Below, piece after piece: positions 23,451 through 44,845 of a DNA stretch of 64,000 nt. The notes beneath the pieces are model-generated. The model made no database searches and was not told where the DNA came from. It worked only from the letters and a program-made list of their open reading frames with translations. A program made the position numbers and the translations under genes. Every line of letters starts with the position of its first letter. The first letter of the stretch is position 1. This DNA is from Candidatus Pelagibacter communis (lineage in GTDB: Bacteria; Pseudomonadota; Alphaproteobacteria; Pelagibacterales; Pelagibacteraceae), in contig NZ_CVSF01000041.1 in the NCBI RefSeq assembly GCF_001179925.1, positions 1 through 64,000 on the forward strand, in the 5' to 3' direction.

Positions 23451-24755
23451 ATGGAAGTTGTTAATGATAATTGTTGTAGTTGGGTAAACGATCTCAATCC
23501 CAGAACAAATATTCAAAAACTTTCTTCTGATTTAAGTTGCGAGTGGTTAATAGTAGGCGCTGGGTATACAGGACTTTCTGCTGCAAGAAAATTAGGTCAG
23601 CTTTATCCTAATCAAAAAATTTTATTAGTTGATGCTCAATTAGCAGGTGAGGGTGCAAGCTCAAGAAATTCAGGTTATTTAGTTGATACTACACTTAATG
23701 ATGGTTTCACTTCTAATAAAGAATTAGAAAATTATAAAAAAAAATCTGATATTTATAAATTAGGCATAGATGCAGTTAAAAAATTCATTAAAGAGTATCA
23801 GGTTGATTGTGATTGGAACGAAAGTGGAAAGTATTTTGCATCATCAAACACTGAAGATAAAAATATCTTAGAAAATTTTTCAGACACTCTGTCTAAATTA
23901 GGATTTAAGCATAATTTATTATTTCAAAAAGAACTTACAAAAAGATTAGGTACTACCTTCTATAACATTGCTCTTCACACAAAAGGAGGAATCCTATTGC
24001 ATCCAGGTAAATTAGTAAGAGCAATGATTGACACATTGCCTGACAATGTAAAACTTTATGAGAATTCATTGCTATTAAACTGGAAAAAGATTGATGGTTT
24101 AATAAATTGTAATTTCAAAAATGGCTCAATAAAAACAAAAAGAATAATCTTTGCAACTAATGGATTTCTTAAATCACTCGGTATTAAAGTAAATTATAAT
24201 TTTCCAATAACTCTAACCGCTAGTATGACAAGGCCTTTAACTGAAAAAGAATTTATATCTATTGGAGAACCAAAAGAATGGGGTGTTTTACCTGTTAGAC
24301 CAATGGGTGCAACAATTAGAATGACCAAAGATAGAAGAATTTTAATAAGAAATACTGCAGAAGTTCATAATCCATTCCAGATGTCTAAATCTATTTTGGA
24401 AAAAAGATCTATAAAGCAAAAGATTGGTATTAAAAAAAGATTTCCACTATTTCCAGATGATATAATCCAATCAACTTGGTCAGGAATTGTCTCTAGAACC
24501 AGAAATAGTTCTCAAATCTTTGAAAAAATTCAAGAAAATATATTTGTTGCAGGTTGTTATAATGGTTCAGGCATTGGAGTAGGCACATTATTTGGTGAAC
24601 AAATTGCTATAAAGGCTAGCAATGAAAACACAAAAGAAATTGAAACTATTGAGGCAAGAACCAAGCCAACTTGGTTACCACCACAACCTTTTTTGGATTT
24701 TGGAGTAAAAGCTAGACTTATGTATGAAAGATTAAGAGCTAGATCTGAAATTTAA
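23451..24755 (+). CDS. FAD-dependent amine oxidoreductase (DAO fold, PuuB/OrdL-like)
   Basis: The 434-residue flavoprotein has the dinucleotide motif LIVGAGYTGLSAARKLG near residue 33, followed by GEGASSRNSGYL, which in this branch is near the flavin. The C-terminal VAGCYNGSGIGVGTLFGE is typical of DAO-type oxidases. Such enzymes oxidise secondary or primary amines. Placed 39 nt after xsc, it could form sulfoacetaldehyde from taurine or an N-methylated relative, as TauXY does elsewhere; no small partner subunit is seen. This substrate is a hypothesis. Confidence 0.75.
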   Translation: MEVVNDNCCSWVNDLNPRTNIQKLSSDLSCEWLIVGAGYTGLSAARKLGQLYPNQKILLVDAQLAGEGASSRNSGYLVDTTLNDGFTSNKELENYKKKSDIYKLGIDAVKKFIKEYQVDCDWNESGKYFASSNTEDKNILENFSDTLSKLGFKHNLLFQKELTKRLGTTFYNIALHTKGGILLHPGKLVRAMIDTLPDNVKLYENSLLLNWKKIDGLINCNFKNGSIKTKRIIFATNGFLKSLGIKVNYNFPITLTASMTRPLTEKEFISIGEPKEWGVLPVRPMGATIRMTKDRRILIRNTAEVHNPFQMSKSILEKRSIKQKIGIKKRFPLFPDDIIQSTWSGIVSRTRNSSQIFEKIQENIFVAGCYNGSGIGVGTLFGEQIAIKASNENTKEIETIEARTKPTWLPPQPFLDFGVKARLMYERLRARSEI

Positions 24756-24783
24756 ACTGGGAGCTCTGTTGCCAGTTGCACTA

Positions 24784-24903
24784 TTATAAATTCATATCAG
24801 GCCAGTCTTTGTCGTTATATCTATCAATTTCTTTTCGAGTAAAAGGTCGAAAAAGAACCCACCCGATAACAATTACTAAAGTTAAAAGTATTATCGTTTT
24901 CAT
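24784..24903 (-). CDS. 39-residue LFRP-motif membrane microprotein (a)
   Basis: The product has a hydrophobic N-terminal helix (residues 3-17), then LFRPFTRKEIDRYNDKDW from residue 17 and the tail PDMNL. It starts 2 nt after the stop of the hydratase-like gene, so it is the last gene of the GMC operon. Compared without gaps with the 39-residue ORF at 44649-44768, Met1, Ile11, Leu17-Pro20, Glu25, Asp27, Asn30 and Lys32 are the same. The family has no name that I know. Confidence 0.65.
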   Translation of the reverse strand: MKTIILLTLVIVIGWVLFRPFTRKEIDRYNDKDWPDMNL

Positions 24904-24905
24904 TT

Positions 24906-25679
24906 CTATCTTATTCTTGCTTTAACAGATCCTAATTTATCTATTTTACCTGTATAAAGACCTTTTCCTTTAATTGGAACAACTCCAACTGACGAACCAG
25001 TAAATACCCAAAAATCCTTACTTAAATTAATTTTATCTTTTTTAACTTTATTCAATACAAATCTTAGTGAATTTAATGGGTTAATATAAACAGTGTTTGT
25101 ATTACCATTTACAGTTTGATTTATTTTTTTGTTTGAAATACTAGTCTTTAAATTACTAACATTCATTCTTTTGTATTTTTTTGACGCTCCCACCAGAAAC
25201 TTTACATTTGCACCAAAATCACTACATAAATCACCAAAAGATGTAATTCCTTTTTTTCTTTGTCTGTAACCAACTACCTCAATACAGGGCGCAATGTGAG
25301 AAATATATCTTGATATATTTTTCATTGTTATTGATCCTTTTAATGAAAAAAAAGATTTCTTAATTTTGTAACAAACTTCGAGCTCAATACCTAAAGTGGC
25401 TTTATTTATTTTTACACTTTTACCATTTTTTAAAAAATTTCTTTTATAAACTGAAGCGTAAAAAGGTTCTTTTTCTTTGAACTTTTTAATTAATGGAATA
25501 CCTGTTCCCGCTGCCTTAAATCCAACAATTGGTAATTTAATTTTGCTTTCACATGCTTTTCTTAATTTTTGAGCTTCTTTAAGTTTTTTTGTGAATTTAG
25601 ATGGAATAGGTGCAATTATCTTATTAGTTAAAAATGCTTTTACTAATTTATCTGAAGTTTTATCAATTAATGTTTTCAT
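24906..25679 (-). CDS. MhpD/2-keto-4-pentenoate hydratase-like protein
   Basis: The 257-residue protein resembles the hydratase/decarboxylase branch of the fumarylacetoacetate hydrolase superfamily: VGFKAAGTGIPL near residue 51, GIELEVCYKI near 97 with the metal-binding Glu, HIAPCIEVVGYR near 128 and FGDLCSDFGANVKFLVG near 147. The usual SDNA type block is altered. The natural substrate is unknown; 2-oxoacid hydration is the family norm. It is the fifth gene of the minus-strand operon that begins with the GMC dehydrogenase. Confidence 0.7.
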   Translation of the reverse strand: MKTLIDKTSDKLVKAFLTNKIIAPIPSKFTKKLKEAQKLRKACESKIKLPIVGFKAAGTGIPLIKKFKEKEPFYASVYKRNFLKNGKSVKINKATLGIELEVCYKIKKSFFSLKGSITMKNISRYISHIAPCIEVVGYRQRKKGITSFGDLCSDFGANVKFLVGASKKYKRMNVSNLKTSISNKKINQTVNGNTNTVYINPLNSLRFVLNKVKKDKINLSKDFWVFTGSSVGVVPIKGKGLYTGKIDKLGSVKARIR

Positions 25680-34162: not shown

Positions 34163-34915
34163 ATGGAAAAAATAACTTTTGATTTTAATAATAAAACTGC
34201 TGTGATTACTGGTGGAGCCCAAGGATTTGGACTTGATATAGCAAAAAGGTTTTTGAAATCCGGTGCTAAAGTAGTTATCTGGGACATCGATCCTAAAATG
34301 ATGGAAAAAGCCTTAAAAGATTTAGATAATCCTAATTTAAGCTCTAACTTAATAGATGTGTCTAATTATAAAGATGTTGAGAATTGTGTTAATGAAATCT
34401 TAAAAAATTCAAATATTGATATTCTTATAAATAATGCGGGAATTACAGGGCCAACAGCCACATTGTGGGAATATGATATAGAAATGTGGAAAAAAGTTGT
34501 TGATATAAATTTAATGGGCACTTTTAATTGTTGTAGAGCAATAGTTCCAAATATGATTAAAAAAAACTATGGTAGAATCGTTAATGTTGCATCTGTTGCA
34601 GGAAAAGATGGCAATGCTAACGCAAGTGCTTATAGTGTTGGCAAAGCTGGAGCAATTGGATTAACTAAATCGTTGGGTAAAGAGCTAGCAGATAAGAATA
34701 TAGCTGTTAATGCCGTTACTCCTGCAGGAGCCAAAACGCGAATTTTAGATCAAATGACCAAAGAACATGTTCAGAGAATGTTATCAAAAGTGCCAAGAGG
34801 AAGATTTCTTGAAGTTGAGGAGTTCACCTCTTTAATTTGTTGGCTGTCATCTGAAGAGAATACTTTTTCTACGGCAGCTGTTTTTGATATAAGTGGTGGT
34901 CGTTCGACTTATTAA
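34163..34915 (+). CDS. Short-chain dehydrogenase/reductase (FabG-like)
   Basis: The 250-residue SDR has TGGAQGFGLDIA at residues 14-25, NNAGITGPTATLWEYD near 90, VNVASVAGKDGNANASAYSV with catalytic Ser and Tyr, followed by GK, and the C-terminal VFDISGGRSTY. Such endings occur in sugar or hydroxyacid dehydrogenases as well as in FabG. It follows the NCS1 permease by 4 nt, suggesting one pathway for an imported alcohol or hydroxyacid. Confidence 0.85.
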   Translation: MEKITFDFNNKTAVITGGAQGFGLDIAKRFLKSGAKVVIWDIDPKMMEKALKDLDNPNLSSNLIDVSNYKDVENCVNEILKNSNIDILINNAGITGPTATLWEYDIEMWKKVVDINLMGTFNCCRAIVPNMIKKNYGRIVNVASVAGKDGNANASAYSVGKAGAIGLTKSLGKELADKNIAVNAVTPAGAKTRILDQMTKEHVQRMLSKVPRGRFLEVEEFTSLICWLSSEENTFSTAAVFDISGGRSTY

Positions 34916-35049
34916 CCTCTGGGTTTTTGATCTAAAATTTTTATATTGTTTATTTTTGCTCTACTCATTTTGAGGTCTTTAGACATAACAGGAGCAAAAA
35001 TCATGATTGACCAGTAAAGCAACAGTATAAAAATTGAAATAGTTTTCAT
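34912..35049 (-). CDS. 45-residue membrane microprotein
   Basis: The product begins MKTISIFILLLYWSIMIFAP, one hydrophobic helix that may be a membrane anchor or uncleaved signal, followed by a basic tail with LKMSRAKINN and DQKPRG. The stop codon overlaps the stop of the converging SDR gene by four bases. No relative is known to me. The intact frame, the Met-Lys start and the clear hydrophobic then basic design support it. Confidence 0.5.
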   Translation of the reverse strand: MKTISIFILLLYWSIMIFAPVMSKDLKMSRAKINNIKILDQKPRG

Positions 35050-42241: not shown

Positions 42242-42260
42242 TCCATATTCAATCTATGGA
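42242..42260 (+). promoter_or_regulatory. Small hairpin over the lon start codon
   Basis: TCCATA (42242-42247) and TATGGA (42255-42260) form a six-pair stem with a seven-base loop, and the lon ATG (42256-42258) is within the right arm. No Shine-Dalgarno is seen. A weak stem at a heat-shock gene start might melt with temperature, but the stem is short and AT-rich. Confidence 0.25.
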
Positions 42261-44634
42261 TGTCAAAATTACATTACCGCTTCTACCTTTAAGAGATATA
42301 GTGGTATTCCCGAGCATGGTAATACCTTTATTTGTTGGTAGAGACAAATCTATTTCAGCACTAAATGAAGTGATGAAAAAGGATAAAAAAATAATTCTTG
42401 TTACTCAAAAAAATTCTGAAATTGATGATCCTAAAAAAACAGACGTTTTTATGTATGGTTGTGAAGGAAGTATTTTACAATTATTAAAATTACCTGATGG
42501 AACAGTTAAAGTTTTAGTTGAAGGTATTAAGAGAGTAAAAATTTTAGATTTTAAAGATAATGAGAAATTTATCATATGTGATTATACACCATATAATGAC
42601 AGTGTAGATAAAGATGAAGACCTTTATCCTCTTGCAGCTACAGCAATTAGAAGACTTGAAAAACTAACTTCGATTAACAAAAAAATTTCTAATGAAACTA
42701 TTAATTCAATAAAACAATTAAAAGAACCGTCACAAATTGCTGACAATATTGCATCTCATATAACTGCAACAATATCTGAAAAACAGCAAATATTTGAGAC
42801 AATCGACGTTAAAAAAAGATTGAATGCTATTATTAAGATTATGGAAAATGAAACTAGCATTATTGGAGTTGAAAAAAGAATTAGAGGTAGAGTTAAGACA
42901 CAGATGGAAAAAACTCAAAGAGAATACTATTTAAATGAGCAATTAAAAGCTATTCAAAAAGAATTGGGTGAAATTGAGGATGGAAAAGATGAGAACACAA
43001 GTTTAAATAAATCAATTTTGAAAGCAAAAATGCCTAAAGAGGTAGAAAAAAAATGTCTTCAAGAATTAAAAAAATTAAAAAATATGAGCCCTATGTCTGC
43101 AGAAGCAACTGTCGTAAGAAATTATCTTGATTGGATGATAGATTTACCGTGGCATAAAAAAAGTGAGGTTGCAATTGATTTAGGTAAAGCATTAGATGTT
43201 TTGGATAAAGATCATTTTGGACTTGAGAAAGTTAAAGAGAGAATTATTGAATTCCTTGCTGTGCAAAAAAGAATGGATAAAATTAAAGGCCCAATTCTTT
43301 GTTTGGTTGGTCCACCAGGAGTAGGAAAAACTTCATTAGGAAAATCTATTGCTAAAGCAACAAATAGAGAGTTTGTAAGAATGTCTGTTGGCGGTATGAG
43401 AGATGAAGCAGAAATACGTGGACATAGAAGAACTTATATTGGTTCATTGCCTGGAAAAATTATTCAAATGATGAAAAAAGCTGGAACTAAGAATCCATTA
43501 GTCTTGTTAGACGAAATAGATAAAATTGGAAATGATTATCGTGGCGACCCTTCTTCTGCTCTTTTGGAAGCTTTGGATCCAGAACAAAATACTTCATTTA
43601 ATGATCATTATTTAGAAGTTGATTATGATTTATCAGATGTAATGTTTGTAACAACAGCTAACACACTAAATATTCTTCCTCCTTTATTAGATAGAATGGA
43701 AGTAATTAGATTAGCTGGTTATACTGAAGATGAAAAAATAAATATAGCAAATAAATTTTTATTACCTAAACAAATCAAAGATAACGGTGTTAAAGAAAAT
43801 GAGATGAAACTTGATACAGATATTATTCAACAAGTTATTAGAAATTACACCAAAGAGTCTGGAGTAAGAAACTTAGAAAGAGAAATTTCTAAACTAGCAA
43901 GAAAAGTTGTCAAAAAAGTTGTCTCAGGTGAGCAAAAAGAAGTCAAAATAACTAAAGAAAATCTTAATGACTTTTTGGGTGTAGCAAAGCATAAATTTGG
44001 AGAACTTGAGACTGATAATAAAGTTGGAATAGTTACAGGACTTGCATGGACAGAATATGGTGGTGAAATTTTAAAGATTGAAACTGTAACTATGCCAGGC
44101 AAAGGTAGAATGCAAATTACGGGTAAGTTAGGTGATGTAATGCAAGAGTCTGTAAAAGCAGCTAAATCTTTTGTAAGATCAAAATGCCTAGAATATGGAA
44201 TTATTCCGCCATTGTTTGAGAAAAAAGATTTTCATATTCATGTTCCAGAAGGTGCAACCCCAAAAGATGGACCTTCTGCAGGAATTGGAATGGTGACTTC
44301 AATTGTATCTTCTTTAACAAATATACCTGTTAGAAAAGATATTGCTATGACAGGCGAAGTTACTATTACTGGTCAAGTCTTACCAATTGGAGGTTTGAAA
44401 GAAAAATTATTGGCAGCACATCGAGCTGGAATTAAAGAAGCTATAATTCCAAAAGAAAATGAAAAAGATTTAGTTGATATGCCAAAAAAGATAATCGATG
44501 AGCTAAAAATTACTCCTGTTGAATATGCTGATCAAGTTTTAAAAATCGCTTTAACCAAAGAATTAAAAAGAACAGAATGGGTTGAAGTAGATTTAAGTAA
44601 AAAAGACGATAAATCTCAAGCAAGTATCCAATAA
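42256..44634 (+). CDS. lon: ATP-dependent protease Lon
   Basis: The 792-residue protein has the substrate-binding N domain (LPLLPLRDIVVFPSMVIPLF), AAA+ domain with Walker A GPPGVGKTSLGKS near residue 352, and a C-terminal protease domain with the Ser-Lys pair in PKDGPSAGIGMVTS near residue 674 and GGLKEKLLAAHRAG near residue 713. It removes damaged and regulatory proteins. The order clpP-clpX-lon is conserved in alphaproteobacteria. Confidence 0.97.
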   Translation: MDVKITLPLLPLRDIVVFPSMVIPLFVGRDKSISALNEVMKKDKKIILVTQKNSEIDDPKKTDVFMYGCEGSILQLLKLPDGTVKVLVEGIKRVKILDFKDNEKFIICDYTPYNDSVDKDEDLYPLAATAIRRLEKLTSINKKISNETINSIKQLKEPSQIADNIASHITATISEKQQIFETIDVKKRLNAIIKIMENETSIIGVEKRIRGRVKTQMEKTQREYYLNEQLKAIQKELGEIEDGKDENTSLNKSILKAKMPKEVEKKCLQELKKLKNMSPMSAEATVVRNYLDWMIDLPWHKKSEVAIDLGKALDVLDKDHFGLEKVKERIIEFLAVQKRMDKIKGPILCLVGPPGVGKTSLGKSIAKATNREFVRMSVGGMRDEAEIRGHRRTYIGSLPGKIIQMMKKAGTKNPLVLLDEIDKIGNDYRGDPSSALLEALDPEQNTSFNDHYLEVDYDLSDVMFVTTANTLNILPPLLDRMEVIRLAGYTEDEKINIANKFLLPKQIKDNGVKENEMKLDTDIIQQVIRNYTKESGVRNLEREISKLARKVVKKVVSGEQKEVKITKENLNDFLGVAKHKFGELETDNKVGIVTGLAWTEYGGEILKIETVTMPGKGRMQITGKLGDVMQESVKAAKSFVRSKCLEYGIIPPLFEKKDFHIHVPEGATPKDGPSAGIGMVTSIVSSLTNIPVRKDIAMTGEVTITGQVLPIGGLKEKLLAAHRAGIKEAIIPKENEKDLVDMPKKIIDELKITPVEYADQVLKIALTKELKRTEWVEVDLSKKDDKSQASIQ

Positions 44635-44648
44635 AAATTTATTTAATC

Positions 44649-44768
44649 ATGGAATTTTTATTCATATTTTTAGGCTTAATATTTTTAATTTATTATTTAT
44701 TTAGACCAACTTCTAAACAAGAGGAAGACAATTTTAACTCCAAAAATAATTGGAGAGGTGGTTTTTAA
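44649..44768 (+). CDS. 39-residue LFRP-motif membrane microprotein (b)
   Basis: The product has a helix (MEFLFIFLGLIFLIYY), then LFRPTSKQEEDNFNSKNNW from residue 17 and the tail RGGF. It starts 14 nt after lon and shares length and placed residues with the ORF at 24784-24903: both have LFRP at residues 17-20 and Glu25, Asp27, Asn30 and Lys32. It occupies the place where hup follows lon in other alphaproteobacteria. Confidence 0.65.
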   Translation: MEFLFIFLGLIFLIYYLFRPTSKQEEDNFNSKNNWRGGF

Positions 44769-44801
44769 ATATTTTCTGCATATTATCTCGAGTAATAAAT
44801 C

Positions 44802-44829
44802 TTGACCTTAACATACTAAAAGATATAAA
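44802..44829 (+). promoter_or_regulatory. Predicted promoter of tRNA-Val and tRNA-Asp
   Basis: TTGACC (44802-44807), 16-bp spacer, TATAAA (44824-44829). The expected start near 44836 is about 10 nt before the tRNA. One of the best promoter matches in the window. Confidence 0.7.
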
Positions 44830-44845
44830 TCACTGTTTTGGTTAA

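Follow-up and report, generated by a model that had tools for sequence, protein, structure and literature searches.

A microprotein family of Pelagibacteraceae with a predicted membrane helix and many genomic addresses

Bacterial single-span regulatory microproteins with known partners include CydX, AcrZ, KdpF and MgtS. The SAR11 microprotein described here resembles them in size, in its one predicted membrane helix and short polar tail, and in a gene that, like theirs, is often found at the end of an operon. The resemblance is one of kind and not of family: none of the four is among the family-library matches of the SAR11 protein, and the genetic neighbourhoods of these examples are more fixed than that of its gene. 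The other close comparison is CcoQ/FixQ, the small subunit of cbb3 cytochrome oxidase, which likewise has about 40 to 60 residues: a single membrane helix, then FRP-x-[S/G]-K-K, then a charged tail. Unlike CcoQ/FixQ, the SAR11 microprotein has its own conserved NW-x-x-GF tail, is not encoded beside oxidase genes and belongs to a bacterial family in which no cbb3 oxidase was detected among the genomes searched.

Two ORFs, a and b, represent this microprotein in the window, by which is meant the whole 64,000-nt stretch of Candidatus Pelagibacter communis DNA that was analysed (Table 1). Both are open, with an ATG start and 39 codons each, and they share 10 of 39 residues without a gap (M1, I11, L17, F18, R19, P20, E25, D27, N30 and K32). 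A sequence-only reading had recorded the common length, LFRP at residues 17-20 and the number of identities, all of which are exact; the N-terminal helix that it proposed agrees with the strong hydrophobicity of residues 3-18 in both ORFs and with the helix predicted for b. Its placing of the two ORFs, one at the end of a GMC operon and the other after lon, is also correct, the 257-aa gene next to ORF a being the last of a co-directional run led by a GMC oxidoreductase. In six genomes of the window's lineage (G000, G060, G219, G453, G526 and G590), the two copies are convergent and lie about 19-20 kb apart, an arrangement that is conserved. Gene names at this and other loci are readings of the sequence, except for genes with Pfam matches.

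Table 1. Coordinates of the two microprotein ORFs, their parts and their flanking features in the window
Feature	Position	Strand	Remarks
ORF a, LFRP-family microprotein	24784..24903	-	MKTIILLTLVIVIGWVLFRPFTRKEIDRYNDKDWPDMNL; a-type dN/dS about 0.17
Predicted transmembrane helix of ORF a (residues 3-18)	24850..24897	-	Mean Kyte-Doolittle 2.9; helix 2-18 modelled for paralogue b
Remainder of ORF a (residues 19-39), with RP boundary, short amphipathic helix and conserved tail containing W	24787..24849	-	From alignments
257-aa co-directional gene upstream of ORF a	24906..25679	-	MhpD/hydratase-like by eye; without Pfam match; 2 nt between its stop and ORF a
lon, co-directional, upstream of ORF b	42256..44634	+	Stop 14 nt before ORF b
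ORF b, LFRP-family microprotein	44649..44768	+	MEFLFIFLGLIFLIYYLFRPTSKQEEDNFNSKNNWRGGF; b-type dN/dS about 0.23
Predicted transmembrane helix of ORF b (residues 3-18)	44655..44702	+	Mean Kyte-Doolittle 2.7; AlphaFold2 helix 2-18, block pLDDT >90
Remainder of ORF b (residues 19-39), with FRP boundary, helix at 23-29 and KNNWRGGF tail	44703..44765	+	Tail is the slowest-evolving part of b-type copies; pN, AlphaFold2 model
77-nt spacer, ORF b to tRNA-Val	44769..44845	+	Sigma-70-like TTGACC-17-TATAAA at 44802-44830

Homology, coding and range of the family

Pairwise identity alone is weak evidence that a and b are related. Direct BLAST of ORF a against the whole genome recovers ORF b at E = 0.033, and 16 of the 24,310 pairs of 30-50-aa ORFs in the window reach at least 10 ungapped identities; a and b are the top pair among the 11 window ORFs of exactly 39 aa. 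The earlier argument that two such ORFs would be improbable by chance is therefore weak by itself, but the homology that it was meant to support is upheld by profiles. Among 486 ORFs of the window, a profile built from a-type relatives only picks out ORF b at E = 4.4e-13, the profile from b-type relatives only finds ORF a at E = 1.6e-9, and comparison of the two profiles gives 99% probability at 61% identity. Each ORF has more than 10 clear relatives in the same genus, at about 50-80% identity, and intermediates match both. Because detection is reciprocal and the profile-profile comparison concurs, it is secure, at the level of sequence comparison, that a and b are homologous and are two paralogous members of one family. 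Another window ORF, at 34912-35049 on the - strand (MKTISIFILLLYWSIMIFAPVMSKDLKMSRAKINNIKILDQKPRG), has a hydrophobic start and lies in the spacer behind an SDR gene. It was considered as a third member (E = 0.0015 to the a-type profile) and rejected, as it has neither the RP nor the acidic helix and tail.

The family is coding and under purifying selection on its amino-acid sequence, as judged from substitution patterns. Median dN/dS, a ratio that the sequence-only reading had proposed to compute, is clearly below 1, at 0.17 for a-type copies (202 pairs) and 0.23 for b-type copies (2771 pairs), as pairwise Nei-Gojobori estimates with 0.1<dS<1 from pairs that are not independent; such values mark the ORFs as protein-coding. 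Entropies by codon position (0.75/0.48/1.09 and 0.68/0.30/0.99) are highest at the third and lowest at the second position. Among b-type copies the tail is more constrained than the membrane helix (pN 0.12 vs 0.28).

The layout common to the family is a predicted N-terminal membrane helix, an [L/I]F[R/K]P boundary, a short amphipathic helix and a tail ending in NWRGGF or NWSxMGF. Across 26 diverse members, F18, E25 and W35 are conserved and L17 and K32 nearly so. The exact length and the LFRP motif, which the sequence-only reading had stressed, hold for a and b and are not family constants: lengths are mostly 38-48 aa, and the motif varies to LTRP, LLRP, IFKP, FREP and FKKP. A divergent 47-residue branch (e.g., MTICSLSLLALFVSGIVMYLFREPSEEEIKKFNSKTQDRSNWSNMGF) has the same tail. 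An AlphaFold2 model of ORF b contains helices 2-18 and 23-29 with a mean pLDDT of 86, the tail being less certain. A single-pass membrane location is thus predicted from hydrophobicity and model, and with fewer than about 50 residues and one hydrophobic helix the protein is of the microprotein kind. Basic residues just after a helix predict the cytoplasmic side (the positive-inside rule); since such residues follow the helix here, an N-out/C-in orientation is expected.

Within the genus, 248 of 399 genomes match at E = 0.1 or better. Roughly 160 of the 399 have strong matches (best E < ~1e-7, counted from listed values), and the remaining matches are to the 47-residue branch (E ~1e-3 to 1e-5) or due to chance. 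Members are also carried by four other groups of Pelagibacteraceae (genera g5, g7, g8 and g9), and the other family of the order yielded matches only at E >0.02. A draw of 289 genomes from the class gave convincing matches in three only, all Pelagibacteraceae, and none in the 286 other alphaproteobacteria. Genome contigs contain 275 relatives, and all of the 80 titles listed are Pelagibacteraceae or Pelagibacterales; searches of phages and viral contigs returned no homologues. No match at all was found in the near-complete genomes G443, G444 and G121, so the gene is dispensable in some lineages. Within the genomes searched, the family is restricted to Pelagibacteraceae and is accessory, being present in part of the genomes.

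Neither broken frames nor a lack of further members, the two outcomes named beforehand as adverse, was seen: members number in the hundreds, and only two listed copies have an in-frame stop. One of these (L039:1495-1614, in G012) has TGA in place of the Arg of NWRGGF, which removes four residues; in the other (G457:C13:12561-12677) the stop is TAA.

Genomic addresses and how they may have changed

The gene is found at at least 10 distinct, unrelated addresses across genomes, an observation new to this analysis; the address table places 184 non-redundant copies. The commonest setting is at the end of a transcription unit, directly behind a co-directional gene and facing a convergent one, and at the main sites 2-15 nt separate the preceding stop from the microgene. 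One site lies between convergent fabI and pnp, where both orientations are found, and another, that of ORF b, lies behind lon and before tRNA-Val. Copies of the ORF a type sit behind an M23 peptidase or the 257-aa gene and face a DAO oxidoreductase, thiamine-enzyme-like or carbamoyltransferase-like gene, and further copies lie behind tmRNA, yajQ, an ABC permease, a peroxiredoxin and others. The downstream neighbour is convergent at 13 of 19 distinct addresses, compared with about 31% of genes in the fetched SAR11 loci (p ~0.001, approximate because distinct addresses were defined by hand). SAR11 rearrangements are reported to concentrate at predicted operon boundaries (Wilhelm et al. 2007, PMC2217521), and it is at operon boundaries that the microgene is found. 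That study, however, compared annotated genes with HTCC1062 and does not appear to name the microgene family.

Empty lon and fabI/pnp sites are present in relatives. The distance from lon to tRNA-Val is 205-261 nt with ORF b between them and 48-57 nt in most genomes without ORF b there. The lon site is nevertheless not a simple clean insertion, because its spacer differs when ORF b is present and includes a promoter-like motif ahead of tRNA-Val. The fabI/pnp spacer is 128-139 nt when occupied (census genomes); when unoccupied, it ranges from near zero or 38 nt up to 1.3 kb of other sequence. Across many Pelagibacteraceae (L278-L304), this spacer is a variable spot between otherwise conserved neighbours.

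On the microgene tree, which was built from 114 columns and is poorly resolved, 13 changes suffice for eight address classes; the minimum is seven, and shuffled labels need about 110. Copies thus cluster by address, which suggests that moves were few and old. On gene trees of the neighbours, the fabI/pnp states need 19 changes (fabI tree) and presence behind lon needs eight, three of them forced (lon tree). This disagreement with the microgene tree would point to loss and lateral exchange after a few moves. For the reversed b copies at fabI/pnp, the fabI tree requires four changes (three forced), but reversed copies require only two when the microgene itself is used for the tree; the idea that orientation flipped many times independently at this site was accordingly set aside. 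It is more careful to read these trees as recording one or two inversions, after which copies were exchanged laterally or lost.

The tmRNA gene immediately precedes an a-type copy in some genomes (L007:1634-1934 on the - strand, L012, L104 and L230), and a-type copies elsewhere have beside them a short segment similar to the tmRNA 3ʹ end (CTGGCAACAGA..); by eye, this is also so in the window, at about 24755-24780. In Rfam this tmRNA-like remnant scores weakly in L005 and has no score in the window beside ORF a. Attachment sites in tmRNA were rejected as a general vehicle, since the pattern is seen only for a-type copies at ssrA and nearby and the window remnant lacks an Rfam score. Some b-type copies are followed gaplessly by ATGAAAAAACTTTTAGGGATCGTGGTTCTGGG or a near copy of it (G194:C2:198119-198311, L013, L015, L016, L041, L182 and L244). 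This segment, a signal-peptide start, has 0-4 occurrences per genome across 12 genomes. The G194 microgene has it on both sides, forming a direct repeat that could serve as a recombination substrate. A tentative suggestion, which we hold to be possible and no stronger, is that the 120-bp gene, having no recombinase of its own, may be a minimal cargo gene shuttled between the 3ʹ ends of SAR11 transcription units, its protein being needed by the cell wherever it is encoded.

A proposed accessory role and its alternatives

No family above cut-off or otherwise convincing was found in Pfam, NCBIfam, PHROGs, PADLOC or PDB, and a literature search for the family or for SAR11 small membrane proteins returned nothing on the family. 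It therefore appears undescribed, but of a known kind, the single-pass bacterial membrane microproteins. The suggestion of the sequence-only reading that this may be an undescribed membrane microprotein family gains support from the hundreds of members, from dN/dS below 1 and from the library searches, the membrane location being predicted.

The reading to which we lean, with some reserve, is that the protein may be an accessory single-pass inner-membrane microprotein acting in trans as a modulator of a larger membrane protein. A role in trans is suggested because the protein is conserved wherever its gene sits, with unrelated neighbours. At most sites the microgene would have no promoter of its own and would be expressed by read-through. 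The protein would insert N-out/C-in, with an acidic or neutral N-terminus and basic residues just past the helix. From its size and architecture, it could then serve as a small modulating or stabilising subunit, with the conserved cytoplasmic tail (the short helix plus NWRGGF or NWSxMGF) probably making a specific contact.

A selfish or toxin-like hydrophobic peptide, of the type I toxin kind or acting in phage exclusion and travelling via variable SAR11 spots, would also be small with a single hydrophobic helix, and the patchy presence, the changing address and the 0.5-1.3 kb of other sequence in the fabI/pnp spacer of many genomes that lack the microgene there all fit such an element. It is nonetheless unlikely: PADLOC models match none of 26 members, none occurs in phages or viral contigs, a separate regulated promoter would not fit into the 2-15-nt spacers of the main sites, and a freely spreading element would not be expected to cluster by address. 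A phage or defence origin was likewise found unsupported by the PADLOC, phage, viral-contig and PHROGs searches. Improbable, too, is a relocated CcoQ/FixQ-like subunit, in which case the small helix would stabilise the aa3 enzyme as the haem-copper oxidase concerned. In Pfam, a b-type member scores best with FixQ (PF05545; E = 5e-5), and six of 18 members match this model over the helix and FRP-x-SKKE, but the best score of 23.6 bits falls below the curated gathering cut-off of 29, and the NCBIfam CcoQ model (TIGR02736) matches one of 26 members at E = 0.065. Furthermore, ccoN, encoding cbb3 oxidase subunit I, was found in none of 20 Pelagibacteraceae genomes, while the control set, e.g., Caulobacter, was positive, and none of the 184 copies in the address table lies beside oxidase genes or in a ccoNO(Q)P operon. 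Membership in CcoQ/FixQ was rejected on these grounds, and the resemblance is taken to be superficial, since ccoN is absent from these genomes.

That the gene lies nearly always directly behind a co-directional gene could mean that it serves its neighbours, as an operon-specific partner, a leader or a 3ʹ-end RNA element. This is very improbable, because a conserved protein is encoded next to unrelated genes (fabI, pnp, lon, tmRNA, M23 peptidase, yajQ, ABC permease and peroxiredoxin), and its amino-acid sequence is what selection acts on. The same selection bears on the notion that these short, intergenic, AT-rich segments are noncoding spacer or terminator sequence open by chance, which is scarcely credible and already contradicted by dN/dS of 0.17-0.23, codon-position periodicity and the same frame in hundreds of genomes.

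Few cell types in the ocean are more abundant than SAR11, whose genome is a model of streamlining. Selection maintains the microgene in a sizeable fraction of Pelagibacteraceae, although Pfam, NCBIfam, PHROGs and PADLOC do not contain it; it is probably unannotated in many genomes and offers a concrete target for small-protein work. The most interesting point of the family is positional rather than biochemical: its changing address is a clean case of tiny genes surviving relocation in a streamlined genome.
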